The notes beneath the pieces were generated by a model. It was not told the origin of the DNA and did not search any database. It was given only the letters and a program-made list of their open reading frames with translations. The position numbers and the translations under genes are program-made. A DNA stretch of 64,000 nucleotides from Sphingopyxis sp. FD7 (lineage in GTDB: Bacteria > Pseudomonadota > Alphaproteobacteria > Sphingomonadales > Sphingomonadaceae). The stretch lies in assembly GCF_003609835.1 (NCBI RefSeq), contig NZ_AP017898.1:2046001-2110000 (forward strand), written 5' to 3'. This document shows positions 1,613-16,579 of the stretch, piece by piece. Every line of letters begins with the position of its first letter. Within the stretch, counting starts at the first letter, position 1.

Positions 1613-1687
1613 TCCTCGGTAGCTCAGCGGTAGAGCAATCGACTGTTAATCGATTGGTCGCAGGTTCGAATCCTGCCCGGGGAGCCA
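1613..1687 (+). tRNA. tRNA-Asn (GTT)
   Basis: A full cloverleaf can be folded by eye: a 7-bp acceptor stem (TCCTCGG with CCGGGGA, two G-U type pairs), D arm AGCTCAGCGGTAGAGC, anticodon arm ATCGA-CTGTTAA-TCGAT with anticodon GTT, and T arm GCAGG-TTCGAAT-CCTGC. Discriminator G and an encoded CCA (1685-1687) follow. The stretch from 1688 to 1926 holds no gene that I can support. Confidence 0.97.
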
Positions 1688-1926: not shown

Positions 1927-2523
1927 TCAGTTCAACCGGTCCAGCAGAATCCCGATGTCGGCGACGGGCATGCAATGCCGGGCGATAAACGCATCAAGAT
2001 CGTCGATCCGCGCCATTTCGCCGTCGTCCCGCATGATCGAACAGATGACCGCCATGTCGCCCGCCCCCGCCAGCGTGCATAGTTCGATCGCAGCTTCGGC
2101 GGCGGCGGCCCTTTCCCTGACGCCGCCCGGCGCGCCGATCAACGGGAATATGTGGCCCGGCGACACAAGATCGTCACCCGATGCGGTCGGGGAAGCCGCG
2201 ACGCGGACGGTATGGGCCCGGTCCGCTGCCGATATACCCGTTCCGACGCCCTCGCGCGCCTCGATCGACCGTCCGAAGGGGCGGCCCGACTGACGGTCGG
2301 CGCCGGGATTGATCAGACTGATGCCCAGCCGCACGGCGCGTTCCGGCCGCATCGCAAGGCAGATAAGGCCACGGCCGTGGTTTGCCATGAAATTGAGCGC
2401 CTCGGCTGTTGCGTGCCGCGCGGCGAGCGCGAAGTCTATGTCGCCTCCGCGCAACCGATCGCCGGTGATGACGATGATCTCTCCCCGTCCAAGCGCCTCG
2501 ATGGCCCGATCAATATCCGGCAT
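1927..2523 (-). CDS. RibB-like protein (DHBP synthase fold) lacking metal-binding residues
   Basis: The whole 198 aa align by eye with 3,4-dihydroxy-2-butanone 4-phosphate synthase (RibB), including ISAADRAHTVR, SPGHIFPL, APGG and RDDGEMAR. However, the signature loop DRENEGD reads DRLRGGD, so both acidic residues E-x-E are gone. The GGHTEA motif that carries the metal-binding His reads RAAAAEA. In E. coli RibB, Glu and His at these places hold Mg2+, so canonical catalysis is unlikely. It is the last gene of the SQ operon and its ATG abuts the stop of the FMN reductase gene. A role with flavin or flavin precursors, or a sugar-phosphate binding function, is conceivable but unproven. It should not be annotated as a working riboflavin enzyme. 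Confidence 0.8.
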   Translation of the reverse strand: MPDIDRAIEALGRGEIIVITGDRLRGGDIDFALAARHATAEALNFMANHGRGLICLAMRPERAVRLGISLINPGADRQSGRPFGRSIEAREGVGTGISAADRAHTVRVAASPTASGDDLVSPGHIFPLIGAPGGVRERAAAAEAAIELCTLAGAGDMAVICSIMRDDGEMARIDDLDAFIARHCMPVADIGILLDRLN

Positions 2524-3105
2524 TCACGCTGCCTTTCGTGCCGCGGCGAAGCTGCTGGCGCCGGACACAAGCTGGTCGGCGACAAGCTCGAGCTGAAATC
2601 GCGCCCGATCTTCAAGGCATTCGCCATCGGGCGAAAAAAGCCCGCGATAGGTGCGAACAGTCGCGCCCATCGGCGTCGGCCAGCCGCGGAGCGCATGGAC
2701 GATGCTGCGGAGCGTCTGCATCGTGCTCATTGTCGCCTGGTCCCCATATGCCGTCGCGATCAGGCCGACCGCACGCCCATCGAGATAGGGCCGTGCATCG
2801 CCCGCCAGTTCCTCCAGATAATCGAGCGCGTTTTTCACAAGGCCGGAAATCGTGCCGTGATAGCCGGGGGCCGCGATCAATACGCCGTCGGCGTCCCGCA
2901 CCGCCGCGACCAGCCTTGCGCCGTCGTCGGGGGAGTGCAGCGGCCCGCGATAATGGGGCAACGCCCCCAGATAGGCGCCGCCGAAGATGTCCACATGCGC
3001 GCCCTTTGCCCGCGCCCGCGCCGCCGCGACGCACAGCGCCTGCTCGGTCGCGCTGATCGGCGATACCGTGCCGCCGATCGCAACGATATTGATCTTCACG
3101 CGCAT
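2524..3105 (-). CDS. NAD(P)H-dependent FMN reductase (SmoA/MsuE/SsuE type)
   Basis: 193-aa flavodoxin-like FMN reductase (PF03358 family). It shows the N-terminal strand and phosphate-binding loop (IVAIGGTVSPISATEQAL), a PGYHGTISGLVKNALDYLEE segment typical of the MsuE/SsuE group, and an AYGDQATMSTMQTLRSIVHA segment. Its expected role is to supply reduced FMN to a partner monooxygenase. The obvious partner is the SsuD/SmoC-like gene two genes upstream in the same operon. Its start overlaps the end of glpD by 10 bp, and its stop touches the start of the RibB-like gene. By analogy with the A. tumefaciens sulfo-SMO pathway this would be SmoA. I leave the symbol empty because the assignment is by context. 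Confidence 0.87.
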   Translation of the reverse strand: MRVKINIVAIGGTVSPISATEQALCVAAARARAKGAHVDIFGGAYLGALPHYRGPLHSPDDGARLVAAVRDADGVLIAAPGYHGTISGLVKNALDYLEELAGDARPYLDGRAVGLIATAYGDQATMSTMQTLRSIVHALRGWPTPMGATVRTYRGLFSPDGECLEDRARFQLELVADQLVSGASSFAAARKAA

Positions 3106-4571
3106 TCCCTTTCTTCAAAAGCAGCGGCGAGTGAACGCCGGGCCGCGGTGTCGATATGCAGCCCTAGCTTGGTGCGCCGCCAAAGAAGATCGTCGACCGT
3201 ACGGCACCATTCCCGTTCGACGAGATAGGCAATCTCGCGGTCGGTGAGCCCGAAGCCATAATGCCGCCCGCAATCATCGAGCCGTCCGACACCATCCAGA
3301 ATGTCGAACGCCCTGGTCCCGTAACTGCGCGCGAGGCGATCGGCCCACGACGGCTGAAGAAAAGAATAGCGACCGCCGAGCGATTCGACGAGCCCGGCGT
3401 AGCCGTCGATCGCAAAATCGCCGCCAGGAAGCGGCGCATCGCCGGTCCACCGGCTCCGCGCCAATGCGGGCAGGCGCGGCGCAAGCCGATCGACGACCTC
3501 TTCGGCAAGGCGGCGATAGGTGGTGATCTTGCCGCCGAAGACCGAAAGCAGCGCCGCGCCGTCGCTCATCGGCGATAGCTCCAGACAATAGCCGCGCGTC
3601 GCCGCCTCGGGCCGCCCCGATCCATCGTCGACCAGCGGCCGCACCCCCGCATAGCTCCAGACCACATCGGTCGGCGTGATCGACCTGCGGAAGAAGCGGT
3701 TGGCGCCATCGCACAGATAGGCGATTTCCTCTTCGGTGGCGCGCACATCGGTCAGAGCGCCGTCATGGTCGCGATCGGTCGTGCCGATCAGCGTGAAGTC
3801 CCGCTCATAGGGAATCGCGAAGAATATCCGCCCGTCGGGAAGCTGGAAGAAATAGCTGTAATCATGGTCGAACAGCCTGCGCACGACGATATGCGACCCG
3901 CGCACCAGCCGCACATGTCGGCGCGTTGCCGCGTCGTTCAGTTGCGATACTTCGAGTGCCGCGGGGCCCGCCGCATTGACGATGGCGCGCGCGTGAAACC
4001 GTCCTTCCGGCGTATCGAGCGTCCAATGGTCGCCGGTCCGCGCGAAACCTGTGACGCGGCAGCGTGTGCGAATGTCCGCCCCGCGATCGGCCGCATCGCG
4101 GGCATTGAGAACGACCAGTCGTGCGTCGTCGACCCAACAGTCCGAATAGGCAAAGCCCGAGACAAACCGATCCTTCAGCGGAGCGCCCGCGACATGATCG
4201 CGTAATGCGATCGTTTCGGTAGCCGGCAGGCGCTTTCGCCCGCCGATATGGTCATAGAGGAAAAGCCCCAAGCGAAGCAGCCAGCGCGGACGCAGTCCGT
4301 CGACATGGGGCAGGATGAACCGCATCGGGCGCACGATATGGGGGGCGATCGCCCACAAGCGTTCACGCTCGACGAGCGATTCCCGCACGAGCCCGAATTC
4401 ATAATGTTCGAGATAGCGAAGGCCGCCGTGGATAAGCTTGGTCGATGCGGAGGAGGTTCCGCTTGCCAGATCATTCGCCTCGAGCAACAGGACGCGCGCG
4501 CCGCGTCCCGCCGCATCGCGCGCGATCCCGCAACCATTGACGCCGCCGCCGACGATGGCGATGTCGAACAT
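3096..4571 (-). CDS. glpD: Glycerol-3-phosphate dehydrogenase, FAD-dependent (GlpD)
   Basis: 491-aa flavoprotein of the aerobic GlpD family, which oxidises sn-glycerol-3-phosphate to DHAP and passes electrons to quinone at the inner membrane. The protein begins with the FAD-binding IAIVGGGVNGCGIARDAAGR fold, followed by the family stretches STKLIHGGLRYLEHYEFGLV and GTTDRDHDG, and the GKITTYRRLAEE motif. The chosen ATG is where this fold begins; the open frame upstream is not GlpD-like. It lies 32 bp after the monooxygenase gene and overlaps the FMN reductase. Within a sulfoquinovosidase operon it makes sense as the route for glycerol freed from sulfoquinovosyl glycerol. No glycerol kinase is present in the window, so that step must be encoded elsewhere. 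Confidence 0.93.
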   Translation of the reverse strand: MFDIAIVGGGVNGCGIARDAAGRGARVLLLEANDLASGTSSASTKLIHGGLRYLEHYEFGLVRESLVERERLWAIAPHIVRPMRFILPHVDGLRPRWLLRLGLFLYDHIGGRKRLPATETIALRDHVAGAPLKDRFVSGFAYSDCWVDDARLVVLNARDAADRGADIRTRCRVTGFARTGDHWTLDTPEGRFHARAIVNAAGPAALEVSQLNDAATRRHVRLVRGSHIVVRRLFDHDYSYFFQLPDGRIFFAIPYERDFTLIGTTDRDHDGALTDVRATEEEIAYLCDGANRFFRRSITPTDVVWSYAGVRPLVDDGSGRPEAATRGYCLELSPMSDGAALLSVFGGKITTYRRLAEEVVDRLAPRLPALARSRWTGDAPLPGGDFAIDGYAGLVESLGGRYSFLQPSWADRLARSYGTRAFDILDGVGRLDDCGRHYGFGLTDREIAYLVEREWCRTVDDLLWRRTKLGLHIDTAARRSLAAAFEERECA

Positions 4572-4603
4572 TCGCAAGCCTCTCCCTCCCTCCGGGCTGG
4601 AAC

Positions 4604-5692
4604 CTAGAACGCCAGCGGCGCGTGCGCGATGTGCGGAAGGACATGGCGCGCGAACAGGTCTGCTTCCTGCGCGTGCGGATAGCCCGACAGGATGAAGGCT
4701 TCGATGCCTTCGGCCTGATAGGCGCGAAGTTTCGCAAGAACCTGGTCGGGGGTGCCGACAATCGCGGCGCCACAGCCCGAACGCGCGCGCCCGATCCCGG
4801 TCCAGAGATTCTCCTCGACGAAGCCGTCGCCATCGGCGGCGCTCCGCAATTCGGCCTGACGCTGAACCCCGTAATTTTTGGCGTCGAGCGATTTTTCGCG
4901 GATCGCCGCGCCCATCGCCTCGTCGAGCTTCGAGAGCAGACGATCGGCATAGGCGCGCGCTTCGTCCTCGGTTTCGCGCACGATGACATGGACGCGGTAG
5001 CCGAACTTCAACCGACGCCCGAACCGCGCCGCGCGTTCGCGCATGTCGGCGATCGTTTCGCGAACCTTGCCCATCGTATCGGGCCACATAAGATAGACGT
5101 CGCAGCCCTCGGCCGCGCATTCGCGCGCCTCATGGCTCAGCCCGCCGAAATAGAAGGGCGGACATTTGCCCGAAATCGTGGTGATGCGGGGCGGTTCGAG
5201 CTTCAGTTGATAAAATTCGCCGTCATGGTCGAGCGCCTCGCCGTTGAGCAGGGTCCGCACAATCTTCATGACCTCGGTTGCGCGTGCATAGCGTGGCTCG
5301 CCGGCCAGCTGCTGGCCGGGCATATCCGAGGAGATGATATTGACATTGAGCCGTCCCCCGGTGCCGAGCGCGTTGGGCCCCAGGATCTGGTCGAGCGTCG
5401 CGATGCGGCGCGCGAGCTGCGGAGGCCAATCTTCGCCGATGCGCGTCGCCCAGAGAAGTTTCATCCGCCGCAGCTGCGTCGCGACAGCGGCCGCAAAAAC
5501 GGTCGTGTCGAGCCCCAGTTGATAGCCCGAAGGAAGCAGGATGTTGTCAAAACCTCCTTCTTCAGCGCGTAGAACGATATTGCGACAATGTTCCCAGCTC
5601 GACCGCAGATAGGGATCGGGGACGCCCAGAAACTCATAGTCGTCATCGCAGAGCGCCGAGAACCAGGCGATCTCGCATTGTTGTTGGGTCAT
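4604..5692 (-). CDS. SsuD/SmoC-like flavin-dependent monooxygenase (candidate SQ monooxygenase)
   Basis: 362-aa luciferase-like (LLM) monooxygenase of the alkanesulfonate monooxygenase group. It keeps SsuD-type residues: an Arg-x-His pair in FGYRVHVIVRETEDEA (matching R226/H228 of E. coli SsuD), the Arg in ENLWTGIGRARSG (R297), and the SGYPH motif with Tyr (Y331). Start ATG at 5692 has GAGAGGAA seven bases upstream; the longer frame reaching 5764 lacks this support. With the FMN reductase of the same operon it would form a two-component system. Next to a sulfoquinovosidase and an aldo/keto reductase the likely substrate is sulfoquinovose, with C-S cleavage giving sulfite and 6-oxo-glucose, as SmoC does. 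Another sulfonate cannot be excluded from sequence alone. Confidence 0.85.
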   Translation of the reverse strand: MTQQQCEIAWFSALCDDDYEFLGVPDPYLRSSWEHCRNIVLRAEEGGFDNILLPSGYQLGLDTTVFAAAVATQLRRMKLLWATRIGEDWPPQLARRIATLDQILGPNALGTGGRLNVNIISSDMPGQQLAGEPRYARATEVMKIVRTLLNGEALDHDGEFYQLKLEPPRITTISGKCPPFYFGGLSHEARECAAEGCDVYLMWPDTMGKVRETIADMRERAARFGRRLKFGYRVHVIVRETEDEARAYADRLLSKLDEAMGAAIREKSLDAKNYGVQRQAELRSAADGDGFVEENLWTGIGRARSGCGAAIVGTPDQVLAKLRAYQAEGIEAFILSGYPHAQEADLFARHVLPHIAHAPLAF

Positions 5693-5766
5693 GTATCTTC
5701 CTCTCCATGCCCTGGGACGCCTCGTTTCGCAGGGTCTTGTCGTGCGCGGCCGAACAGGCCGCAAGC

Positions 5767-6681
5767 TCAGGGGAGGGCGGCGCCCCGCGCGGCGACAAAC
5801 ACGTCATACCATTCGGACCGCGTCCACCGGACGCGGAGCGCGCTTGCCGCCTCCCCAATTCGTTCGGCGCGCTGCGACCCGACAATCGGCACGATGCCCG
5901 CCGGATGCGCCATCAGCCAGCTGTAAGCGGCAACTTCACGCGACACATTTTGTGCGGCGGCCACATTGTCCAGCGCGGCGGCGACAGCCTGGTCGCGGCC
6001 GCTTTGCGGCGCCAGCAGCCGTCCCCCGCCCAGCGGCGACCAGGCGAGCGGCACGAGCCCCATCGCCATGGCCTGGTCCAGTTCGCCATTTTCAAAGCAA
6101 TCGATGCGCAGCGGGCTGATCTCGGGCTGTGTTGCAACCAGCCTGTTACCAAGAAACCGGTTGAGCGCCTCGGTCTGCGCGACGGTGAAGTTGGAGACGC
6201 CGAGCGAGCGGAGCTTGCCCGCGGCGATCGCGTCATCCAGTGCCCGCGCGACCTCCTGGGGATGCGCCAGAATGTCGGGACGGTGAATCTGCCAAAGGTC
6301 AATCCGGTCGGTGCGCAGGCGCCGCAACGAAGCATCGATCGCCTCGGCGAGATAGTCGGGGCTCTGATCATATGGAAGCGGCGGGCGAATGCCGCCTTTC
6401 GTCGCGAGCACCATGCGATGGCGCAGCGGCGGGTCGGCCGCCAGCACCTCGCCCAGCAACGCTTCCGCGTCGCCGAAACCCTTCGCGCCATCGAACCCGT
6501 AAATGTCGGCGGTGTCGAGCAGGGTGATTCCCGCGTCGAGCGCGGCGTACACCAGCCGCGCCGCTTCGGCGACGGTGCGTCCGCCCTCGGCGAGCCGCCA
6601 CATTCCCCAGGCGATGGGCGAAACCGACATTCCGCTGTTTCCGAGCGGGCGCGACGCAGGCGGGGCAGGCAACAGGCTCAT
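5767..6681 (-). CDS. Aldo/keto reductase (candidate 6-oxo-glucose reductase, SmoB-like)
   Basis: 304-aa AKR-superfamily oxidoreductase with an (alpha/beta)8 barrel. The catalytic tetrad is visible: Asp in TLLDTADIYG, Tyr of the same motif, Lys in VLATKGG, and His in DLWQIHRPD. The NADP-binding end is the VPIVGSQRAERIGEA segment. The ATG overlaps the TGA of the upstream LacI gene (ATGA), which indicates translational coupling and fixes the start. In the known sulfo-SMO pathway an AKR (SmoB) reduces 6-oxo-glucose to glucose after desulfonation, and this gene sits exactly where such an enzyme is needed. The substrate assignment is inference; the family call is firm. Confidence 0.87.
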   Translation of the reverse strand: MSLLPAPPASRPLGNSGMSVSPIAWGMWRLAEGGRTVAEAARLVYAALDAGITLLDTADIYGFDGAKGFGDAEALLGEVLAADPPLRHRMVLATKGGIRPPLPYDQSPDYLAEAIDASLRRLRTDRIDLWQIHRPDILAHPQEVARALDDAIAAGKLRSLGVSNFTVAQTEALNRFLGNRLVATQPEISPLRIDCFENGELDQAMAMGLVPLAWSPLGGGRLLAPQSGRDQAVAAALDNVAAAQNVSREVAAYSWLMAHPAGIVPIVGSQRAERIGEAASALRVRWTRSEWYDVFVAARGAALP

Positions 6682-7691
6682 AGAGGATTCCTGGCTGGCG
6701 GCGCGACCGAAGCGCGCTCGACAAGGGTGTGGGGAAGCCGGTGGTGACTGATGTCGCCACCTTCGATCAGAATTCGCGTCGCGGTGCGGGCCAGCTCGGC
6801 CATCGGCTGGTGAATGGTGGTGAGCGGCGGCCACACCGTCCGCGACAAGGTCGTGTCGTCGAAGCCCGCAACCGAAAGCTCCGAAGGCAGGTCGATACCG
6901 CGGTCATGCGCGACCGCCAGCACGCCGGCCGCCATGTCGTCATTTGCGGCAAAGATGGCTGTCGGCGGATTGTCGAGGCCGAGCAGGAAGCGTCCGGCCA
7001 CCACGCCGCTGTCGAAATCGAACTCGCCATCACACACGAGGCCCGGCTCGAACGCGATGCCGGCGCGATCGAGCGCCCGGCGATATCCATACAGGCGGTC
7101 GTCGGACGCGCGATGGCTTGGATGACCTTTGACGAACCCGATGCGCCGGTGGCCCACGTTGATCAGATGCGTCGTCATGTCGTCCGCGGCCTGGACGTCG
7201 TCCATGAACACCGAACTGGTGAGCGAATGGTTCGTTCCCGGTGAAATGCGAACGAACGGGATGTCGAGCGTTTCGAGCGCCGCGAGCACGGCTTCGCAAT
7301 CGGTCACGGGAGACGACAAAATGATGCCGTCGACGTGGGTTTCGGTGACCAGCCCGCGCACCTGTTCGCCCACGCCGGGATCGGCCACATCGACCGGCTG
7401 CGCCAGCAGGCGGATGCCTCGTTCCTTGCACGATTGCCAGCACCCCGTCTGGATCTGAAACATATAATAGGGGCTGTGATTGTCATAGATCAGCGCAATC
7501 TGGTTCGATTTCGCTCCCGACAAAATGCGCGCCGCGACGCTTGGACGGAAATCGAGTTCCGCCATCGCAGCCTCGACGCGACGCCGCGTTTCTTCGCTGA
7601 CATAGGGATGACCGTTGAGCACGCGGCTCACCGTCTTGACTGCCACCCCCGCCTTGGCGGCGACGTCCCGGATATTGGCCCGCTCGCTCAT
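6678..7691 (-). CDS. LacI-family transcriptional regulator of the SQ locus
   Basis: 337-aa LacI/GalR-type repressor. The N-terminal helix-turn-helix is IRDVAAKAGVAVKTVSRVLNG, with the hinge helix near PSVAARILSGAKSN, followed by a periplasmic-binding-protein-like sensor domain ending in LSVAGFDDTTLSRTVWPPLT. The start ATG overlaps the TGA of the sulfoquinovosidase gene and its own TGA overlaps the next ATG, so it is embedded in the operon it probably controls. Its ligand is unknown but SQ or a pathway intermediate is the natural guess. Candidate operators are the near-identical 17-bp motifs at 9761-9777 and 13661-13677. Confidence 0.93.
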   Translation of the reverse strand: MSERANIRDVAAKAGVAVKTVSRVLNGHPYVSEETRRRVEAAMAELDFRPSVAARILSGAKSNQIALIYDNHSPYYMFQIQTGCWQSCKERGIRLLAQPVDVADPGVGEQVRGLVTETHVDGIILSSPVTDCEAVLAALETLDIPFVRISPGTNHSLTSSVFMDDVQAADDMTTHLINVGHRRIGFVKGHPSHRASDDRLYGYRRALDRAGIAFEPGLVCDGEFDFDSGVVAGRFLLGLDNPPTAIFAANDDMAAGVLAVAHDRGIDLPSELSVAGFDDTTLSRTVWPPLTTIHQPMAELARTATRILIEGGDISHHRLPHTLVERASVAPPARNPL

Positions 7692-9697
7692 TGCTTCCAT
7701 ACCTCCGCCAGTCGGCCGAACAGCGGCGCAAAGACGCTGTCCGGCCGGAAAAATACGGGTGGCGTGCCAATCGGCGCGGAGATCTGGTGAACACCGGGCG
7801 CAAAATCCTCGCCCGTCCAGCAGTGGCGCCACGGCCCCTTGCCGGGAAGGACGACATTGCGTCGCTCGACCCCCTGCTCGACGACTGGCGCCACCAGGAG
7901 GTCCGCACCGTAAAGATACTGATCCTGCACAGTAAAGAGCGTCGGATCGTCCGGGTAGTGGAGGAACAGCGGTCGCTGGGCGGGTAGTCCCCTCTCCTGC
8001 GCCTCGTCGCACAGATGTCGGACATAGGAAGCAAGATGCGCATGGACCCGGCTCCAGCGCGCGAAGCAGGCGAGCAGGTCGGGCGTCGAATCATATTGCA
8101 GATTGTCGTCGGGGCGGTTGCCCTCATGGCTGCGCATCACCGGTGCGAAGGCCGCCAGTTCGCACCAGCGCTGCATCAGCTCCTCGCTCCGCACATTGCC
8201 ATGCAGCGATGTATAGCCGCCGCAGTCCGAATGGCTGTAGGCGTTGCCGACCAGACCCGCCGACAGGGCCGCCGTCAATACCGTCCCGATGCCATCGTGG
8301 CGGGAGAAATCGACGCTCTGGTCGCCGGCCCACAGCAGCGGGCAATACGCCTGAACGCCGGAAAAACCCGCACGCATGAAAAACAGCGCCTCGCCCGTCT
8401 TGCCCCGCGACGCGACAGCCAGGGCGTTGACCTCGGCCCAAAGGACCGGCCAGCGATTATGCGCCTCCATCGGGTCCGACCCGTCGGCGAGCCGGACATC
8501 GGTCGGCAGATATTCCCCGAAATCGGCCATCCATCCCGAAACACCGATGTCGAGCAGCTCGCGACCCAGAATATGCTCGGCGAACCAGTCGCGGGTTGCG
8601 GCGCGCGTGAAATCGAGAACGCCGCAATAAAATTCCCCGAAATCGACGAGATAGATCTCGTCGCTGTCCCGGCGCAGACACAAATGCCCATCGGCTTTCG
8701 CCCGGTCAAAAAGGGTGCCGTCGACCGCCAGATAGGGATTCACATATGCAAGGAAGCGAATGTCGCGTTCGGCCAGCGCCGCGATGCGCGCCCGAAGGTC
8801 GGGATAACGCTGTTCGCTGCGCGCGCCGTGGACCCAGTCCCAGAAAAGCCGACGACCAAAGCTCGTCTCGCGAACACCCGCCCAGTCCTCGCACCATAAT
8901 CCCGACACGGCGGCGCCGGCGTCGAGAAATCGCTCCAGCCGCTCGAAGCTCGACGCACCCGATTTGAGCCCGACGATCGCGCCGCCGATGGCCCAGTCGG
9001 GCAACGCGGGTTGTCGGCCAAATCGTGCCGACAATTGCCCGACCAGCGCCGCCGGATCGTCGGCGGCGAAAAACTCGAACCGCGCCCGCGTTCCCCAATA
9101 TTCGACGCGATGCACGGCCGGATCCGAAAAATCGAGGACGCTATAGCCAAAATCGTCCAGATGAATGGCGATCCATCGGGAGGTCAGGAACGTCGGCTGC
9201 GGATAATTGCTGTTCCAATAATCGCCCCCGGCCATCCCTTCGGCATCCATGATGCGGGTCAGGTCCGTCGACTTGTCACGCCCGACGCCGGGTTCGCTCG
9301 TCCAGATCGGGAATCGGCGGCCCGCCAGCATCAGATAGCTCATCTGCTCGCCGCCACCCCAGACCGCTTCGCCCGGCTCGGCATGGAAATGCGTCGTTAT
9401 CCGGTCGTAGCCGCTCCGCAGAAGCTCGACGCGCAGCGTGCTGCCCGCAATGCCCAGCCGCACCGCCGGCTCGCCCGCGTCGAGCAGGAGCATGTCTGCG
9501 CCGTCGGCGCGCCAGTCGGTGCACAGGATCGCGCCTTCCGGCGAGTCGTCGATCCGGAAATTGCCGCGATACATGGCGATGCTGGGAGCGCCGCGTGCAA
9601 TGGCCACCGCAGGACAATCGAAAGCGTGCCGCAGCACAAGATGCGAGCCGAATCGAAGCTCGAACCCGTCATCTCGCTCATAAAACCGCAATATCAC
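7688..9697 (-). CDS. Sulfoquinovosidase, GH31 (YihQ/SmoI type)
   Basis: 669-aa glycoside hydrolase family 31 protein. The SQase hallmark CEDWAGVRETSFGRRLFWDW carries Arg283 and Trp286, matching the sulfonate-binding R301/W304 of E. coli YihQ. Tyr495 in HSDCGGYTSL matches Y508. The nucleophile is Asp392 in GWMADFGEYLPTD and the acid/base is Asp459 in WAGDQSVD. The pair Lys245/Glu270 replaces the Gln/Gln pair of YihQ, the combination I recall for the divergent A. tumefaciens SQase. The start is GTG at 9697, because GAGAGGAA lies seven bases upstream; an ATG 36 bp further upstream lacks a ribosome site. It is the first gene of the minus-strand operon. It would release SQ from sulfoquinovosyl glycerol. 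No signal peptide is seen, so it acts inside the cell. Confidence 0.92.
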   Translation of the reverse strand: MILRFYERDDGFELRFGSHLVLRHAFDCPAVAIARGAPSIAMYRGNFRIDDSPEGAILCTDWRADGADMLLLDAGEPAVRLGIAGSTLRVELLRSGYDRITTHFHAEPGEAVWGGGEQMSYLMLAGRRFPIWTSEPGVGRDKSTDLTRIMDAEGMAGGDYWNSNYPQPTFLTSRWIAIHLDDFGYSVLDFSDPAVHRVEYWGTRARFEFFAADDPAALVGQLSARFGRQPALPDWAIGGAIVGLKSGASSFERLERFLDAGAAVSGLWCEDWAGVRETSFGRRLFWDWVHGARSEQRYPDLRARIAALAERDIRFLAYVNPYLAVDGTLFDRAKADGHLCLRRDSDEIYLVDFGEFYCGVLDFTRAATRDWFAEHILGRELLDIGVSGWMADFGEYLPTDVRLADGSDPMEAHNRWPVLWAEVNALAVASRGKTGEALFFMRAGFSGVQAYCPLLWAGDQSVDFSRHDGIGTVLTAALSAGLVGNAYSHSDCGGYTSLHGNVRSEELMQRWCELAAFAPVMRSHEGNRPDDNLQYDSTPDLLACFARWSRVHAHLASYVRHLCDEAQERGLPAQRPLFLHYPDDPTLFTVQDQYLYGADLLVAPVVEQGVERRNVVLPGKGPWRHCWTGEDFAPGVHQISAPIGTPPVFFRPDSVFAPLFGRLAEVWKQ

Positions 9698-9760
9698 GCT
9701 TTGCTTCCTCTCGCCGCGCGATTTTTGAACCATAAATCCGGTCTCGCCGCAAGCTCAATG

Positions 9761-9777
9761 TGACACCGCTTGACATA
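9761..9777. promoter_or_regulatory. Candidate operator in the SQase/TonB-receptor intergenic region
   Basis: TGACACCGCTTGACATA lies between the divergent sulfoquinovosidase and TonB-receptor genes. The motif TGACACCG-N3-GACATA recurs at 13661-13677 between the divergent MFS and YeiH genes, with 14 of 17 bases identical. With flanks it forms an imperfect palindrome ATGT...ACAT with a central C-G step, as LacI-family sites often do. The assignment to the LacI regulator of the locus is inference. The plus-strand TTGACA inside it could also serve as a -35 element. Confidence 0.55.
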
Positions 9778-9879
9778 TAGGGTCGACGGGAGCATGCAAT
9801 GGCGAAACAAGAGGCGCTTTCCCTGTGGTCGGCCGCGGCCGCGGAAACGCGCCCGAACCGCTTGTGGGAGGAGAATGCC

Positions 9880-12192
9880 ATGCGTGCGTCCAGCTTTACC
9901 CTTATGCGTGCCGTGCCCGTCACGGTCAGCGCGATCGCGATCGCCTTCGCTACATCCGCCCAGGCGCAGGAGGTCGAAGAAATCATCGTCACCGCGCAAA
10001 AGGTCGAGGAAAATGTCCAGAAGGTTCCGATCGCGATCACCGCGGTGTCCGGCGACCGCCTCGAAGCAACCGGCACGACCAGCCTGGAGGGGATCACGCG
10101 CATCGTTCCGTCGGTGACCTTCCGCAAGGGCACGACAAGCGCGAACAGCGCCATTGTGATGCGCGGCGTCGGGACGATCACTTTTTCGATCGCCGCCGAA
10201 CCGAGCGTATCGACCGTGGTCGACGGCATCGTGCTCAGTCGCTCGGGCCAGGCCTTCATGGACCTCGTCGATGCCGAACGTCTTGAGGTGCTGCGCGGGC
10301 CGCAGGGAACGCTGTTCGGAAAAAACGCGTCGGCGGGGCTCGTCAATATCGTATCGAAGGGCGGCACGGATCAGCTCGAAGCCGAAGCCAAGGCCGAATG
10401 GTTTGAAGGCGACGAGTATCGCGCGCGCGCGTCGGTGGCGGGACCGCTCGGCGGCGACTGGAGCGGCCGGGTCACCGGATTCTATGGCAGCTACGACGGC
10501 AACATCACCAACATCAACGGCGGCCGCAACCGCAAGGTCAACGGGTACGAACATTGGGGCGCGCGCGGCATCATGGACTATCGCGGCGATGGCGCACGCC
10601 TGCGCTTCATTGCCGACTATTTCAAAGCCGACGACGATTGTTGCGCCGACGTGACGGGGGCCAGCCGCGGCGCGGTGCTCGATGCCGAACTCGACCTGCC
10701 CCGCGGTGTGGCGCTCGGCGAGAAGCAGCGCTTCATCAATCACAATCTTGTGACGCAAACGCGCGACAAGCAGTGGAGTCTGACCGCCAGCGGGGATTTC
10801 GACCTCTCCGACACTCACACGCTCAGCGTCGTCGCCGGCTATCGTAATTGGGAGAATGAAGAGATTCGCGAGGGGGATTTCCTGCCTCGCGCGATCGTGG
10901 GCACGGCGGAGCTGCACGACGACGGCCTCGTCAAAACGCAGCAATTCTCGGTCGAGGCGCGCGTCGCTTCCGACCAGTCAATGCCCTTTTTCTATCAGAT
11001 CGGGGCCTTTGCCTGGCATTCCGACAACAAGCAGGATTTCACACGTCGCGACATCAGCTGCGCCACCTCGACGCTGCCGGTCGATCCGGCGACGGGTGCG
11101 CGGCCCTGCAACGTCAACGATACGGTCAACACGCTGTTCCCGACGGCGACCTCCAACAGCGACGTCAATTCGACCAACTTCGCGCTGTTCGGGCAGGCGA
11201 CCTATCGCTTCAGCGACCTGATCGCGCTGACGGGGGGGCTTCGCTACACCTGGGACGATCTGAGCTTCACGCACGTCCGCGCACCCGGCGTCAACGCGGC
11301 GACGGGTCTGCCGGCGACGGGTCCGGGCATTTCGGGCAGCCCCGCGGGCGGCACCGTCGCATCGGGCGGCACGGGGCTGAACACCTCGAGCGGGTCGAGC
11401 AGCAACGGCAATCTGTCGGGCAAGGCCGTGCTCCAGTTCACCCCTTCCGACGACATCATGCTCTATGGCAGCTACACGCGCGGCTACAAGGGACCGGCGT
11501 TCAACGTCTTCTTCAACCATACGGCGCCGACCAACGCGGTTCCGATCGACGAAGAAACGTCGGATGCGTTCGAGATCGGCGTCAAATCGCGCTTCCTCGA
11601 CAACAAGGTCCAGCTCAACCTTGCGGGCTTCAGCGTCGAATATGACGGCTTCCAGGCAAACAATTTCGTGCTTTTGAACGGAGCCGTCGTCACGAACCTG
11701 ACCAACGCCGGCACGGTGAAGAGCGAGGGGTTCGAGGCGGACCTCACGGCTGTCCCGGCGGACGGGCTGACGCTGCGCGGAAGCGCCGCCTATGCCGATG
11801 CGAAAGTCAAAAGGTTCAACCCCAACCCGTTGACCAACGCGCCCGATGCGCGTGATGGAACGCGGCTCCCGCTCGCACCGAGGTTCACCTACACGCTCGG
11901 GGCCGACTATGAAGTTCCTGTTGGCGGCCTGATGCTCTATCTCGGCACCGACTATCGCCATGTATCGAAGCAGTTTTCCGATCTCGGCGAACAGGGCGTT
12001 ATTGACGCCTATGGCCAATGGAATGCGTCGATCGGCATTTCGGATGCCGAGGACCGTTATCGCCTGACCTTCCATGCCCGGAACATCAGCGACGAAAGCT
12101 ACGTTCTGCTCAACGTCTCGAACGGCCAGCGCCTGCAGATTCCGCGCGACGCCGACCGCTATTTTGGCGTGAGCTTGCGAGCGCGCATGTAA
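9880..12192 (+). CDS. TonB-dependent outer membrane receptor
   Basis: 770-aa outer membrane receptor. A signal peptide ends about AFATSAQAQ, followed at once by the TonB box EVEEIIVTAQKVEE. The plug domain has the usual LEGITRIVPSVTFR and LRGPQGTLFGKNASAGLVNI segments. The beta-barrel ends in YFGVSLRARM, and about 30 aromatic-rich strands are spread along the chain. The start is the ATG at 9880, with GGAGGAG eight bases upstream; an ATG at 9799 in the same frame would put 27 unlike residues before the signal peptide. It is divergent from the SQ operon and shares its regulatory region, so it is the likely outer membrane port for SQ or sulfoquinovosyl glycerol. The ligand is inferred from context only. 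Confidence 0.93.
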   Translation: MRASSFTLMRAVPVTVSAIAIAFATSAQAQEVEEIIVTAQKVEENVQKVPIAITAVSGDRLEATGTTSLEGITRIVPSVTFRKGTTSANSAIVMRGVGTITFSIAAEPSVSTVVDGIVLSRSGQAFMDLVDAERLEVLRGPQGTLFGKNASAGLVNIVSKGGTDQLEAEAKAEWFEGDEYRARASVAGPLGGDWSGRVTGFYGSYDGNITNINGGRNRKVNGYEHWGARGIMDYRGDGARLRFIADYFKADDDCCADVTGASRGAVLDAELDLPRGVALGEKQRFINHNLVTQTRDKQWSLTASGDFDLSDTHTLSVVAGYRNWENEEIREGDFLPRAIVGTAELHDDGLVKTQQFSVEARVASDQSMPFFYQIGAFAWHSDNKQDFTRRDISCATSTLPVDPATGARPCNVNDTVNTLFPTATSNSDVNSTNFALFGQATYRFSDLIALTGGLRYTWDDLSFTHVRAPGVNAATGLPATGPGISGSPAGGTVASGGTGLNTSSGSSSNGNLSGKAVLQFTPSDDIMLYGSYTRGYKGPAFNVFFNHTAPTNAVPIDEETSDAFEIGVKSRFLDNKVQLNLAGFSVEYDGFQANNFVLLNGAVVTNLTNAGTVKSEGFEADLTAVPADGLTLRGSAAYADAKVKRFNPNPLTNAPDARDGTRLPLAPRFTYTLGADYEVPVGGLMLYLGTDYRHVSKQFSDLGEQGVIDAYGQWNASIGISDAEDRYRLTFHARNISDESYVLLNVSNGQRLQIPRDADRYFGVSLRARM

Positions 12193-12248
12193 CCGGCTGC
12201 GCCCGCCGCCTCCGGCGGGCGCCGCTTCCCGGCGTCTTCCGGGACCAC

Positions 12249-12278
12249 CCTCCCGCGATCATCGCGGGAGGTTTTTTT
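12249..12278 (+). terminator. Rho-independent terminator after the TonB receptor gene
   Basis: The inverted repeat CCTCCCGCGAT / ATCGCGGGAGG (12249-12271) is followed by seven T (12272-12278). It ends the TonB-receptor transcript. The MFS gene converges from the other side with its stop at 12352. Confidence 0.85.
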
Positions 12279-12351
12279 GTGGCTTGCCGACGAACGCCGC
12301 CGCGCGTCGGCAACCGGCGTGCGCCGCCGGCGGCGCTGCGCCGGCGCCGAT

Positions 12352-13587
12352 TTATTCGTGCGCCTGCGCAAGTTCCAGCCGGGGCACGATAAGATGGATC
12401 ACCAGCAGCGCGGCAAGATAGGCAAGGCTGCAGATTGCAAAGAGCGGTCCATAGCCGAGCCCGTTTCCGAGCGACCAGCCGGCGAACTCGATGATCGCGG
12501 TGCCCGACAAATTGCCGGCGACCGCCCCGAGCGCGATGACGGTCGCGACGCGGAGCGGCGGGATGATGTCGGCGGTCATGCCAAAGATGTTCGTCGAAAA
12601 ACCCTGATGCGCGAACAGTCCGACACCGACGAACAACGCGGCGACCCAGGGATTGGCAGTGTACATGGCAAGCGGCATGACCAGCACCGCAAGCGCGAAG
12701 ATGAACATCGACAGCTTGCGCGCGCGATTGACCGAGAAACCGCGACCGAGAAGGATCGGATAGAGCGCTCCCGACATGACGGCGCCAAGAGCTGCGAGCG
12801 TGAAGACGATCGCGATGGGCAGGCCGAGCGAGCCTTGACTCATTCCGAACTCGCGATTGAAAAAGTCCGGCATCCAGAAAAGCACGAACCACCAGACGCA
12901 ATCGGTGCAGAATTTGGCACCCACCACGGCCCAGGTCCGTCGGTCGCGGAGCAGCGGGCGCCAGGCGACCTTGGCGCGTTCGGGAAGGTCGCCCAGCGGC
13001 CGCATTTTGCGCATCGCGGGAAGCCAGAACGCAAGCCACACGAACCCCAGCGCCCCCGTGACGATGAACGCCGCCTTCCAGCCGAAGGCAAGCGCCAGCG
13101 GCGGGATCAGAAGCGGCGTGACTATCGCGCCGATGTTCGGTGCGGTATTGATCAGTCCGATCGCCATATTGCGCTGCCGCACGGGGAGATAGGTCGCCGC
13201 AGTCTTGATACCGGCAGGCGTGCTGACCGATTCCCCGACCGCCAGCACGACGCGCGCCGCAACGAACTGCTGGACGCTTTGCGCAAGCGCGTGCGCCATC
13301 CCGGCCAGGCTCCAGACGGATATCGCGATCGCATAGGCCCAACGCACGCCCAGACGATCGACGAACCACCCCACACCGAGAAGCGCCGCGGCCGCGGCAA
13401 TCTGGAAGGTCGAGCCCAGATGCGCATAATCCGAATCGCTCCAGCCGAATTCGGCTTCCAGCGTCGGCTTCAGAAGGGCAAGGACCTGCCGGTCGACATA
13501 GTTCAGCGCATTTCCCAGGAAAAGCAGCGTGACCAGCACGATCGCGATCCGCGTCGAACGGTCCCCCTGCGTTGCTGCCGTCGTCAT
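12352..13587 (-). CDS. MFS transporter, ACS/ExuT-like sugar-acid permease
   Basis: 411-aa major facilitator protein with about 12 hydrophobic segments in two halves. The first half begins IVLVTLLFLGNALNYVDRQV, with the NYVDR motif typical of the anion:cation symporter (ExuT/GudP) branch, and has a loop motif GWFVDRLGVRWAYA between helices 2 and 3. The start ATG at 13587 has GGGAGAGAG just upstream, and 13 residues of upstream frame are discarded. This branch imports hexuronates and related acidic sugars, which suits anionic sulfoquinovose. It sits between the TonB receptor and the divergent YeiH gene and shares the 17-bp motif in its promoter region. Substrate is inferred. Confidence 0.88.
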   Translation of the reverse strand: MTTAATQGDRSTRIAIVLVTLLFLGNALNYVDRQVLALLKPTLEAEFGWSDSDYAHLGSTFQIAAAAALLGVGWFVDRLGVRWAYAIAISVWSLAGMAHALAQSVQQFVAARVVLAVGESVSTPAGIKTAATYLPVRQRNMAIGLINTAPNIGAIVTPLLIPPLALAFGWKAAFIVTGALGFVWLAFWLPAMRKMRPLGDLPERAKVAWRPLLRDRRTWAVVGAKFCTDCVWWFVLFWMPDFFNREFGMSQGSLGLPIAIVFTLAALGAVMSGALYPILLGRGFSVNRARKLSMFIFALAVLVMPLAMYTANPWVAALFVGVGLFAHQGFSTNIFGMTADIIPPLRVATVIALGAVAGNLSGTAIIEFAGWSLGNGLGYGPLFAICSLAYLAALLVIHLIVPRLELAQAHE

Positions 13588-13660
13588 GGCCTCTCTCCCT
13601 TGCCATTTTGCTGTTTCGACTTGCAACCTAGCGCGCGCTGCCGATAAGGGAAGGAAAATA

Positions 13661-13677
13661 TGACACCGTAGGACATA
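13661..13677. promoter_or_regulatory. Second copy of the candidate SQ-locus operator
   Basis: TGACACCGTAGGACATA lies between the divergent MFS (start 13587) and YeiH genes. It matches the copy at 9761-9777 at 14 of 17 positions, differing only in the N3 centre. Two copies in two divergent promoter regions of one locus suggest a common regulator, most simply the LacI protein. Confidence 0.55.
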
Positions 13678-13766
13678 AGGTGAAAGACTGCGAAGCGATG
13701 TTGCGCGGCCCCGCCCCTGCCGAGCCGTATTGCGGGGATTTATTCGGCGAAATCCACCTGGCGGAC

Positions 13767-14780
13767 ATGGCCGACGCCGCTCCGGGGCCGGGAATCGTCC
13801 AGTATTTCCCTGGTCTGGCGATCTGCGCCGTGGCTGCCGGCGCGGCCGGATGGCTTTCGGACCATTATGGCGTCCCCGTCATCCTGCTCGGCCTGCTCAT
13901 CGGACTTGCCCTGAACTTCATCGCGCGCGACCCGCGCACCCATCGCGGACTCGACCTCGCCTCGCATGGCTTTCTGAGGATCGGAATTGTGCTCCTTGGA
14001 TTTCAGGTCAGCATTGCGCAGATCGTCGCGCTGGGCGTCCTGCCCTTTGTCGCGCTGCTGATTATCATGGCGGCTGCTTTCGCGGGAGGCCTTGTCGGCG
14101 CCCGCATCGCGCGTCAATCGCGATACGCGGGTCTGCTCGCCGGCGGGGCGACGGCAGTTTGCGGCGCCAGCGCGGCGCTCGCCCTCTACGGCATCGTCGG
14201 CAAGGAACGGCTCAGCCAGGCGCAATTTGCACTGACATTGGTGGGTGTGTCGATGGCGAGCGCGCTCGCCATGTCGCTCTATCCCGCCATTGCGGCCGAG
14301 CTGGACCTCAGCGATGCACAGGCCGGCTATCTGATCGGCGCGTCGATCCACGATGTCGGCCAGGCGATCGGCGGCGCCTATACCATTTCGGATGCCGCGG
14401 GTGCCGATGCCACGATCGTCAAGCTGGCGCGCGTTACCCTGCTGGCGCCCGTCGCGCTGCTTGTTTCGCTGATGATCGGCCCGGCGCGCGCCGGCTCGCC
14501 GCGGCCAAGTTGGCGGCGCCTGGCCATGCCGTGGTTCATCACGCTCTTCCTTGCCTTCGTCGTGCTCAACAGCCTGGTCGACCTTCCCGCCGTTGCGGCG
14601 ACCAATGCGCTTGCCGCGTCCAAGGCGCTGCTGCTGCTCGCCGTGACGGCCACCGCCATGCGTTCGCGCACCGACCTCCTGCTCGACCTCGGCTGGCGGG
14701 CCGCCGCTCCTGTGGCGACGGCTTCGCTGGCAAGCTTTGCCGCCGCGCTGGCCCTGGTGATGATCGGGGCGAACGGCTGA
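13767..14780 (+). CDS. YeiH-family anion exporter (putative sulfite/sulfate efflux)
   Basis: 337-aa integral membrane protein of the PF03601 family (YeiH, putative sulfate exporter). It has ten or so hydrophobic segments, the family signature LAGGATAVCGASAALALYG, and the ASIHDVGQAIGGAYTIS segment matching YeiH STVHEVAQVVAAGHAIS. The start is uncertain: ATG 13767 gives an N-terminus like E. coli YeiH. ATG 13698 and GTG 13680 are in frame, but 13680 lies two bases after the putative operator. It is divergent from the MFS gene. Desulfonation of SQ yields toxic sulfite, so an anion exporter here fits the pathway. Transport of sulfite is inference. Confidence 0.82.
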   Translation: MADAAPGPGIVQYFPGLAICAVAAGAAGWLSDHYGVPVILLGLLIGLALNFIARDPRTHRGLDLASHGFLRIGIVLLGFQVSIAQIVALGVLPFVALLIIMAAAFAGGLVGARIARQSRYAGLLAGGATAVCGASAALALYGIVGKERLSQAQFALTLVGVSMASALAMSLYPAIAAELDLSDAQAGYLIGASIHDVGQAIGGAYTISDAAGADATIVKLARVTLLAPVALLVSLMIGPARAGSPRPSWRRLAMPWFITLFLAFVVLNSLVDLPAVAATNALAASKALLLLAVTATAMRSRTDLLLDLGWRAAAPVATASLASFAAALALVMIGANG

Positions 14781-14799
14781 GGCGTCGCCCCTCGGAAGG

Positions 14800-16113
14800 T
14801 CAGAGCCCGTCGACGGGTCGGATCGCACCCCTGACGCGGTCGAACTGGGCCGCAACGTGGCGCGCATAGGGGAGGCCTTCGTCGCGGATCACCAGTTCGT
14901 TCCCGGCCCATTCGACGATCGCACGGCGCTCGTAATCGGCCAGCGCCGCGCGCGCGGCCATCCGCCACGTCTTGCCGACAGAAGTTCGCCCGCGACACAG
15001 AAGGTCACAAATATGCGCGGCGCGCAACCGCTCCGCATCGGTGACGGCTACACCGCGCGCTGTCGGCGGTCGCCCTTCGCTCACCCTGTCGCGATAGGGG
15101 CCCGCGCGCTTCTCATTCTGGACAAGAAGGTCCGGAAAGCGACTGATCGCGCTCGCGCCGAAACCGAGCAGCACGGGAGCCGTATCTTCGGTAAATCCCT
15201 GGAAATTGCGGCTGACGCGTCCCTCGCGCGCCGCGATCGCCAACGGATCTTCGTCGCGCGCAAAATGGTCGAAGCCGATGGAGGCATAACCCGCGGCGGT
15301 CAGCCGGTGGAAGCCCAGCTCGGCCTGCTCGAAACGCAGCCGCTGGTCGGGGAGGGTCGCTTCCTCAATCTGTCGCTGCCGCGGGATCATATCGGGCAGG
15401 TGGGCATAGCCGAACAGCGCGATCCGGCTTGGCGCGAGTCGGATCGTTTCGTCGAGGGTCGCATCGAGATCGTCCAGCGTCTGCCCCGGCAGCCCGTACA
15501 TCAGGTCGAAATTGATCGCCTCGATGCCGCGGAGGCGAAGCCCGGCGACGACACGCTCGATGTGCGAAAGCGGCTGGATGCGCCCGATCGCCTGCTGAAC
15601 ATGTGGGGCAAAGGTCTGGACGCCCAGGCTGACGCGCGTAACGCGCGCGGCGGCGAGCACCAGCGCCCATTCGGCGTCGAATCCGCGCGGATCCAGCTCG
15701 ATCGAGATGTCGGGGCGGTGGCAATCGAAAACGGTCAGGATACGATCGAGCAGGCGGACCAGTTCGACGGGCGCAATCGCATTGGGGCTGCCACCGCCAA
15801 AGGCGATGCGCTGCACGCGCCCGCGCCCGCCGAGCCGCTTCGCCACAAGCGCAATCTCGGCGCGAAGCGCTGCCAGATAGTCGGCCAGCCGCTGCCTGCG
15901 CCCGGCCGCACCGGTATTGCAACCGCAATACCAGCATATCTGTTCGCAAAAGGGGATATGGACATAAAGCGAGATCGGCGTCGCCGCCTCGACCCGGTCG
16001 AGCGCGCGCAGATAATCCTCGGCGCCGACGTCGCCGGTGAACTCCATCGCGGTGGGATAGCTGGTGTAGCGTGGCACCGGTTTGGCCAGCAGTTCGGAAT
16101 GATAGGTCCACAT
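14800..16113 (-). CDS. hemN: Oxygen-independent coproporphyrinogen III dehydrogenase
   Basis: 437-aa radical SAM enzyme that decarboxylates coproporphyrinogen III to protoporphyrinogen IX without oxygen, in the cytosol. The protein opens with the HemN sequence VPRYTSYPTAMEF, then YVHIPFCEQICWYCGC containing the CX3CX2C cluster plus the extra Cys. Further family features are IAFGGGSPN, ELDPRGFDAEW, SLGVQTF and the C-terminal HemN domain. The upstream FNR box at 16148-16161 is 35 bp from the ATG, which indicates induction at low oxygen together with the cbb3 oxidase that needs its heme. Confidence 0.96.
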   Translation of the reverse strand: MWTYHSELLAKPVPRYTSYPTAMEFTGDVGAEDYLRALDRVEAATPISLYVHIPFCEQICWYCGCNTGAAGRRQRLADYLAALRAEIALVAKRLGGRGRVQRIAFGGGSPNAIAPVELVRLLDRILTVFDCHRPDISIELDPRGFDAEWALVLAAARVTRVSLGVQTFAPHVQQAIGRIQPLSHIERVVAGLRLRGIEAINFDLMYGLPGQTLDDLDATLDETIRLAPSRIALFGYAHLPDMIPRQRQIEEATLPDQRLRFEQAELGFHRLTAAGYASIGFDHFARDEDPLAIAAREGRVSRNFQGFTEDTAPVLLGFGASAISRFPDLLVQNEKRAGPYRDRVSEGRPPTARGVAVTDAERLRAAHICDLLCRGRTSVGKTWRMAARAALADYERRAIVEWAGNELVIRDEGLPYARHVAAQFDRVRGAIRPVDGL

Positions 16114-16147
16114 GCCCGCCTCCTAATCGCGCTGGCCCGGTGTGGCA

Positions 16148-16161
16148 TTGATCGGAATCAA
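16148..16161. promoter_or_regulatory. FNR/anaerobox upstream of hemN
   Basis: TTGATCGGAATCAA is a perfect TTGAT-N4-ATCAA palindrome, 35 bp from the hemN ATG. The FnrL-type regulator encoded at 25211-25900 is the natural binder. Confidence 0.88.
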
Positions 16162-16412
16162 CAGCGCGTGCATCCGCGGCGCCTCTCCTTGCTCGCCGCG
16201 CCCTTTCCGCGCCGGTCGGTGGCGACATGGCAGACCTTGGCGCAATCGCGGTCCCGGTCGGGATTGGCGGGATCGGTTGGCTCGCCGAGCAGCATCGTCC
16301 GGGGTATCCCGCCGCCGCACGACCGCACGATCAGCGCCCGCGCCTCGACCGCGGCGGGTGGCTGCATCATCGCCGCGGCGCCGAGCAGTGCTGCGATCCT
16401 TCGCGCCATCAT
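16158..16412 (-). CDS. Small secreted Cys-containing protein coupled to ccoS
   Basis: 84-aa protein not recognised as a named family. It starts with a signal peptide (MMARRIAALLGAAAMMQPPA, cleavage about AVEA) and has a basic tail. Five cysteines are present: one in VRSCGGG, two in the CAKVCH motif (C-x3-C-H), and two in the C-terminal GCTRC. The start overlaps the stop of ccoS (ATGA), so it is translated as the last gene of the cco operon. Its 3' end runs just past the hemN FNR box. A periplasmic role in copper or thiol chemistry during oxidase assembly would fit context but is only a guess. A non-functional frame is less likely given the coupling and signal peptide. Confidence 0.6.
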   Translation of the reverse strand: MMARRIAALLGAAAMMQPPAAVEARALIVRSCGGGIPRTMLLGEPTDPANPDRDRDCAKVCHVATDRRGKGAASKERRRGCTRC

Positions 16413-16564
16413 GGGGACCGCGCCTCTTCATCCTCGACGAAGATGCGCAGAGCGGCGCCGTCGAGATCGTCGAACTGCCCCTTGCCGAGCGACCAGAAAA
16501 AGGCCGCAAGCCCCAACAGGCCGAGCCCGAGCGCGATCGGGATGAGGAAGGCCAGCCCGTTCAC
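16409..16564 (-). CDS. ccoS: cbb3-type cytochrome oxidase assembly protein CcoS
   Basis: 51-aa single-span membrane protein with the typical pattern NGLAFLIPIALGLGLLGLAAF then FFWSLGKGQFDDLDGAA. CcoS is needed for cofactor insertion into the CcoN subunit. The GTG at 16564 is chosen because AAGG lies about eight bases upstream and the protein then begins as family members do; another GTG at 16606 would add 14 unusual residues. It lies 132 bp after ccoI, and that gap is filled by one arm of an inverted repeat. Confidence 0.88.
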   Translation of the reverse strand: MNGLAFLIPIALGLGLLGLAAFFWSLGKGQFDDLDGAALRIFVEDEEARSP

Positions 16565-16579
16565 CGGATAGCCTTTTTT

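Follow-up and report, generated by a model that had tools for sequence, protein, structure and literature searches.

A predicted sulfoquinovose monooxygenase locus of Sphingopyxis sp. FD7 with a probably neofunctionalised paralogue of dihydroxybutanone phosphate synthase

Results

Gene content of the locus

We analyzed a stretch of 64,000 nucleotides from Sphingopyxis sp. FD7, a member of the Sphingomonadaceae (contig NZ_AP017898.1, positions 2,046,001 to 2,110,000 of the forward strand; called the window below). Ten predicted genes at positions 1927-14780 make up what appears to be a locus for the degradation of sulfoquinovose (SQ) through an SQ monooxygenase (SMO), that is, a locus of the sulfo-SMO pathway, also named sulfo-ASMO. 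One of the ten products, a RibB-like protein here called RibBl, belongs to the family of 3,4-dihydroxy-2-butanone 4-phosphate (DHBP) synthase. We put the probability that this is a sphingomonad sulfo-SMO locus with RibBl as a neofunctionalised paralogue of DHBP synthase at about 0.85. Inspection of the open reading frames (ORFs) found all ten at the coordinates given by an original prediction from the bare letters, and Pfam and NCBIfam profile searches confirmed the families of their products. The genes are as follows.

1927..2523, minus strand: RibB-like protein RibBl, 198 amino acids, apparently a remodelled DHBP synthase paralogue (PF00926, 197 bits)
2524..3105, minus strand: NADPH-dependent flavin mononucleotide (FMN) reductase (PF03358)
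3096..4571, minus strand: GlpD-type glycerol-3-phosphate dehydrogenase (NF009906, 728 bits)
4604..5692, minus strand: SmoC/SquD-like SMO of the luciferase-like monooxygenase (LLM) class (7olf, 366 bits)
5767..6681, minus strand: SmoB/SquF-like aldo/keto reductase (AKR) (7bbz, 188 bits)
6678..7700, minus strand: LacI-type regulator (PF00356 and PF13377)
7688..9733, minus strand: GH31 sulfoquinovosidase (SQase) (5ohy/5ohs, 803/801 bits)
9799 (or 9880)..12192, plus strand: TonB-dependent receptor (PF07715 and PF00593)
12352..13587, minus strand: major facilitator superfamily (MFS) permease, galactonate/ExuT-like (TIGR00893, 165 bits, under its cut-off of 395)
13680 (or 13698)..14780, plus strand: YeiH-family protein (PF03601, 158 bits)

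The seven minus-strand genes from RibBl to GH31 are tightly packed. The pairs GH31/LacI, LacI/AKR and GlpD/FMN reductase overlap, the FMN reductase and RibBl genes abut, and only 32 and 74 bp separate the remaining two pairs, which makes a single operon likely. To this extent the minus-strand operon of the original prediction stands, while the MFS gene lies apart on the same strand and the TonB receptor and YeiH genes are on the plus strand. A palindrome search of the intergenic gaps of the locus for LacI operators gave nothing prominent. Since the same gene set recurs together across many Sphingomonadaceae genomes, the arrangement goes beyond chance.

Enzymes of SQ desulfonation

Among solved structures, the monooxygenase matched 7olf best (366 bits, E = 2e-108), followed by 7oh2 (350 bits), 7jv3 (205 bits) and the SsuD entries 1m41/1nqk (180 bits), and its 16-residue stretch NLWTGIGRARSGCGAA is the same in 7olf and different in 7jv3. 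We take 7olf and 7oh2 to be SmoC, 7bby and 7bbz to be SmoB, 5ohy and 5ohs to be the SQase of Agrobacterium tumefaciens, and 7jv3 to be MsuD; the molecule names in the PDB are silent on this point. With 366 bits to SmoC and 180 to SsuD, the grouping with alkanesulfonate enzymes that had been named as an alternative did not appear. Rhizobium sp. SL42 has a SmoC-like protein with which it shares 50.7% identity. The AKR gave 188 bits with 7bbz (phmmer, E = 2e-54), the next family (7twz) reaching 147, and it is 38% identical to the AKR of the rhizobial SmoC/SmoB-like pair.

The GH31 protein matched 5ohy (803 bits) and 5ohs (801 bits), then 8r56 (654 bits) and 6pnr (632 bits), which carry only GH31 or alpha-glucosidase labels, and Escherichia coli YihQ (593 bits), after which the scores drop to 134, so an ordinary alpha-glucosidase is not what its sequence suggests. 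Its Arg, Trp, Tyr and Asp align with positions 283, 286, 491 and 455 of 5ohy, which we take to be the sulfonate-binding Arg/Trp/Tyr and the acid/base Asp, and this agrees with the SQase residues originally claimed for it. Ten of 12 compared positions are identical to 5ohy; 395 and 472 differ, and 395, which we had presumed to be the nucleophile, is apparently a wrong number.

A published rule for sulfo-SMO clusters asks for SmoB and SmoC within 10 ORFs, at ≥30% identity, E ≤1e-50 and ≥70% coverage, and does not require SmoA (PMC13372026; this and the other papers cited by accession are used here in excerpt). In the window the two genes are adjacent, and the locus qualifies with structure entries and the rhizobial homologue as references, in place of the sequences of that study. 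The originally proposed assignments as SQase, SQ monooxygenase and 6-dehydroglucose reductase are supported by the best matches, 5ohy/5ohs, 7olf and 7bbz, and judged by sequence the core is a sulfo-SMO locus.

Accessory genes

The locus contains no ATP-binding cassette (ABC) importer, the rest of the genome not having been searched for one, and the earlier proposal that TonB and MFS genes take the place of such an importer holds for the locus itself. The TonB receptor would serve uptake across the outer membrane and the MFS permease uptake across the inner membrane. The genome carries a second GlpD gene (C1:2399733; NF009906, 706 bits) and, elsewhere, one glycerol-kinase-like gene whose 560 bits are slightly below the family cut-off of 590. 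GlpD and then GlpK genes directly follow the monooxygenase gene in Novosphingobium pentaromativorans US6-1, which fits the release of glycerol from sulfoquinovosyl glycerol (SQGro).

YeiH is 41% identical over 292 amino acids to a YeiH-type protein encoded near the SmoC/SmoB-like pair of Rhizobium sp. SL42. Sulfite resistance in Salmonella is driven mainly by YeiH (PMC12880088), and a likely role of YeiH in the present locus is sulfite export or tolerance.

The FMN reductase scored 29 bits with the SsuE equivalog model TIGR03567 (cut-off 164) and is no SsuE equivalog. A plasmid search found its relatives in many genera. They are encoded directly behind LLM monooxygenase genes on plasmids of Sphingobium sp. 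AntQ-1 and Pseudomonas sp. CIP-10; upstream of the relative on a Rhodococcus qingshengii plasmid, genes for a member of the acyl-CoA dehydrogenase family and for a vicinal oxygen chelate (VOC) protein take the place of an LLM gene. The FMN reductase is likely to be the supplier of reduced FMN (FMNH2) for the monooxygenase.

Active site and fold of RibBl

The genome carries three DHBP synthase (DHBPS) genes, two for RibBA with intact motifs and the one for RibBl. An AlphaFold model of RibBl (mean predicted local distance difference test score, pLDDT, 92.4) has the DHBPS fold. All 47 solved structures that it matched at E ≤0.001 are RibB/DHBPS, some of them solved with sulfate, and the template modelling (TM) scores to the five best matches, all DHBPS, are 0.88-0.92. 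The modelled fold alone would say nothing about the function of RibBl.

We compared 33 RibBl sequences (from the window, 30 family genomes, N. humi and Novosphingobium sp. SG707) with 81 ordinary RibBs, namely 79 from a contig profile search and the genome's own two RibBA. The numbering of RibBl in the window, used here, is that of the Vibrio cholerae enzyme offset by 13. The comparators were chosen by patterns including TGISA(A/H)DRA, so conservation inside this stretch is partly due to selection; the residues lost in RibBl lie outside it. One RibBl (L192; G603, about 16640-16760) is out of frame before about residue 43, which leaves 32 readable sequences at the N-terminal loop; damage to this copy or an error in sequencing may be the cause.

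One change concerns Glu-39 of the V. cholerae enzyme, which is a ligand of both metals and whose mutation abolishes activity (PMC5228156). All 81 RibBs have Glu at this position, whereas the 32 readable RibBl sequences have Gly (19), Arg (9), His, Asp or Gln (one each) and, in a single case (L214), Glu. In the RENEGD loop, Asn27 is replaced by Gly in 32/32 readable sequences, in all of which Gly21 is likewise present. Thr81, kept in every ordinary RibB, has become Arg in 33/33 RibBl and is followed by Pro82 in all of them; Glu162, also kept in 81/81, is Ser or Ala in 33/33; and Thr142, invariant among the 81, is retained in 3 of 33. At position 141, RibBl has Ala or Thr in place of the His metal ligand; since 29 of the 81 ordinary RibBs have Gln there, the loss of this His proves little by itself. 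RibBl shares with RibB Thr95, Asp101 and His124 (equivalents of Thr108, Asp114 and His137) as well as Arg138 and Glu143 in 33/33, and Arg25 and Asp30 (Arg38 and Asp43) in 32/32 readable sequences. RibBl has the fold of DHBPS; apart from the Glu of L214 it is without the metal ligand Glu-39, and it does not keep the RENEGD loop of a DHBP synthase.

With its active-site residues changed, the "RibB-like" protein cannot be read as an ordinary RibB. The flavin-related genes of the original prediction keep a plausible partner of the monooxygenase in the FMN reductase; for RibBl, which is without residues kept by ordinary DHBP synthases, a role in flavin supply is doubtful. RibBl sequences form one clade with 100/100 support and a long stem in the tree. 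For the 14 closest pairs, which have sequences in common, a simple counting method gave ratios of nonsynonymous to synonymous substitution rates (dN/dS) of 0.05-0.13, and close RibBl pairs show strong purifying selection.

Distribution and gene context

The monooxygenase was found in 38/149 Sphingomonadaceae genomes, the source genome included, and at E 1e-120 in 102/397 family genomes. The gene content was compared in 38 SMO regions from 37 other genomes, two coming from one genome and several being clipped by contig ends. They contained matches to the AKR (36), TonB receptor (32), MFS permease (27), LacI (24), GH31 (21), YeiH (18), GlpD (13), FMN reductase (10) and RibBl (8 at >60 bits); the low-identity TonB, MFS and GlpD matches are possibly unrelated family members. 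In a family genome of 86% completeness and 7% contamination (G007; L071 and L072), two copies of the SQ locus lie near both ends of one contig, each with fragmented SMO and GH31 matches.

RibBl was present in 31/397 family genomes (E 1e-70), and the monooxygenase in 30 of these 31 compared with 72 of the 366 others (Fisher p 1.3e-18). The two counts were taken as the same draw of 397 genomes, as size and genome handles agree. The Fisher value overstates independence because the genomes are related. The sole RibBl genome without SMO is 69% complete, and RibBl lies there on a short contig with TonB, MFS, FMN reductase and YeiH genes around it. SMO is present in 28 of the 30 RibBl regions other than the window, at 0.9-11.3 kb from RibBl; the contigs of the two remaining regions measure 5.2 kb and 15.3 kb, and the genome with the 15.3-kb contig is fragmented and has SMO at the end of another contig. 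A class-wide search (E 1e-75) found RibBl in 1/385 genomes, the source genome itself. Because at most eight candidates per genome were scored in the class-wide and family searches, RibBl could have been missed in some genomes. A contig profile search with the RibBl alignment gave at least one RibBl (Novosphingobium sp. SG707, L074) among the 80 loci listed, and as it was swamped by ordinary RibBs, further RibBl may exist there.

Every fetched RibBl neighbourhood looks like an SQ locus. The FMN reductase gene is directly upstream of RibBl on the same strand in 30/30 fetched regions and in the window, and with the start codons as picked the two genes overlap by 4 or 1 bases in 25/30. GlpD adjoins the reductase in 26/30 regions, and the order GlpD, reductase, RibBl is also found in N. 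humi and Novosphingobium sp. SG707. This module stays together despite its differing position and orientation among loci.

Around the locus, a tRNA-Asn gene (window 1613-1687, plus strand), about 240 bp past the 3' end of RibBl, marks the edge and is a possible insertion landmark. Beyond YeiH on the minus strand, positions 14800-16113 read like a HemN-type coproporphyrinogen III oxidase and 16697-19237 like a FixI-type copper P-type ATPase, both by sequence reading only.

Discussion

The sulfo-SMO locus of A. tumefaciens (SmoA-I) has an SQase, SmoB and SmoC similar to those of the present locus, and presumably a LacI-type regulator as well. The present locus differs in its PF03358 reductase, as we take SmoA to be a PF01613 protein, and in the additional GlpD, YeiH and RibBl genes. 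A further difference is the SQGro ABC transporter of A. tumefaciens (PMC9594981), in contrast to the TonB and MFS genes found here; in the excerpts, "TonB" occurs in neither PMC9594981 nor PMC12890257, and "GlpD" does not occur in PMC12890257.

According to these two reviews, Novosphingobium aromaticivorans DSM 12444 (SquD and SquF; Liu et al. 2021) is, like A. tumefaciens, an organism in which the sulfo-ASMO pathway has been characterized. Sphingomonads were thus already known to have the pathway, which had been put forward as a distinct version. Compared by description and not by sequence, the N. aromaticivorans cluster is like the present locus in its sphingomonad host and in its SsuD-type SQ monooxygenase and AKR; it was found via its sulfoquinovosidase gene and, per the review, is without SsuE. 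An isotope study of 2026 traced SQ carbon into Novosphingobium, counted it among the active degraders and predicted sulfo-SMO from related genomes (PMC13372026). A GH188 gene of Sphingomonas sp. Leaf17 is named among SQ clusters, in a passage that does not state the pathway (PMC10755693).

Several observations weigh against a sulfo-SMO locus with a remodelled RibBl. Among the 102 SMO-positive family genomes, 72 are without RibBl, and RibBl is therefore an accessory and not essential to the pathway. The RibBl of L214 retains the metal-binding Glu, and that of L192 has its N-terminus out of frame. The FMN reductase is not of the SmoA type, judged with the PF01613 reductase at the rhizobial SmoC/SmoB-like locus as a stand-in for SmoA, to which it has no sequence similarity. 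No GH31 match was found in 17 of the 38 related SMO regions, some of which are clipped by contig ends. Finally, on a plasmid of Rhizobium sp. WSM4643 (L226, 7995-9053), the gene for an SMO homologue with 71% identity has genes for LacI, an L-arabinonate dehydratase and an ABC sugar transporter as neighbours, and the annotation shows neither an AKR nor an SQase within 8 kb, so part of the SMO clade may act on something else.

RibBl could also be a working DHBP synthase that, with an altered site, boosts the flavin supply of the monooxygenase, a part that RibB genes may also play in other operons with flavin monooxygenases. On the second replicon of the same genome (L228, G000:C2:53000-72900; 8246-17957), an intact RibBA gene directly follows a paralogue of the FMN reductase gene in a catabolic run, and an LLM monooxygenase gene is on the same strand about 7 kb upstream; these three families were assigned by Pfam and the other genes were named from sequence reading only. 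The ipp cluster of Rhodococcus sp. D-6, whose monooxygenase group and substrate are different, has a RibBA-like ORF between the genes for its flavin monooxygenase and the reductase (PMC12442392). There are thus at least two cases elsewhere of a RibB close to a flavin reductase among monooxygenase genes. The Glu kept in L214 would also fit a working synthase. The reductase-RibB pair is not general, as no RibB was found in 11 neighbourhoods of reductase paralogues (L229-L239, from ten same-genus genomes) or in two reductase-containing SMO regions (L060 and L063). Against a working synthase, Glu-39 is kept in only 1/32 readable RibBl compared with 81/81 RibBs, Thr81 and Glu162 are changed throughout and Thr142 in 30/33, and the genome already encodes two RibBA proteins whose motifs are intact. 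We consider a working synthase unlikely, and judging from these residues it is very probable that RibBl does not produce DHBP, the precursor of riboflavin.

LLM monooxygenases differ in substrate, and the WSM4643 homologue, in a neighbourhood without an annotated AKR or SQase, could mean that the locus acts on an alkyl sulfonate or on a sulfonated sugar other than SQ. This is still less probable than a working synthase, given that the adjacent GH31 protein scores about 800 bits with SQases and retains the presumed sulfonate-binding residues, and that a SmoB-type AKR adjoins the monooxygenase. Least probable of all is that RibBl is a decaying pseudogene or functionless passenger: its lost catalytic residues, its absence from most SMO-positive genomes and the frame of L192 would fit, but the low dN/dS, the new Arg81 and Pro82 (33/33) with Gly21 and Gly27 (32/32 readable), and its constant place beside the FMN reductase, even where the loci are arranged differently, speak against it.

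We thus favor a sulfo-SMO locus with a neofunctionalised RibBl. The chances are slightly better than even that sphingomonads have in RibBl a new component of SQ desulfonation, its DHBPS fold having been given a rebuilt active site and repurposed to work alongside the FMN reductase and SMO; it might, for example, handle SQ, 6-dehydroglucose, a sulfite adduct or flavin. We lean somewhat towards a role in the flavin/monooxygenase step over one in which RibBl acts directly on the sulfosugar, and a role as SQ mutarotase is speculation. Literature text searches, judged largely by title, found no link between riboflavin or RibB and SQ catabolism, and neither "riboflavin" nor "RibB" occurs in the excerpts of PMC13372026.

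Gene identities, synteny, active-site changes and selection are read from the sequence, and from them we infer the following reactions, transport direction and regulation in this strain. SQGro or SQ would enter through the TonB receptor in the outer membrane and then through the MFS permease in the inner membrane, and the GH31 sulfoquinovosidase would free SQ and glycerol. The FMN reductase would give FMNH2 to the SmoC/SquD-like monooxygenase, which would convert SQ to sulfite and 6-dehydroglucose, and the AKR would reduce the latter to glucose. Glycerol would enter metabolism through a glycerol kinase encoded elsewhere and the GlpD of the locus, YeiH would dispose of sulfite or aid its tolerance, and LacI would regulate the locus. 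RibBl, travelling with the FMN reductase, would make no DHBP and would most likely assist the flavin/monooxygenase step or bind a sulfosugar or oxyanion.

Sulfoquinovose ranks among the most abundant organosulfur compounds (PMC12890257), and the locus offers testable candidates for its uptake, for flavin supply and for sulfite disposal in sphingomonads. RibBl represents a DHBP synthase subfamily that profile searches call riboflavin biosynthesis, yet its active site appears to have been rebuilt, and it was found here only in SQ loci.

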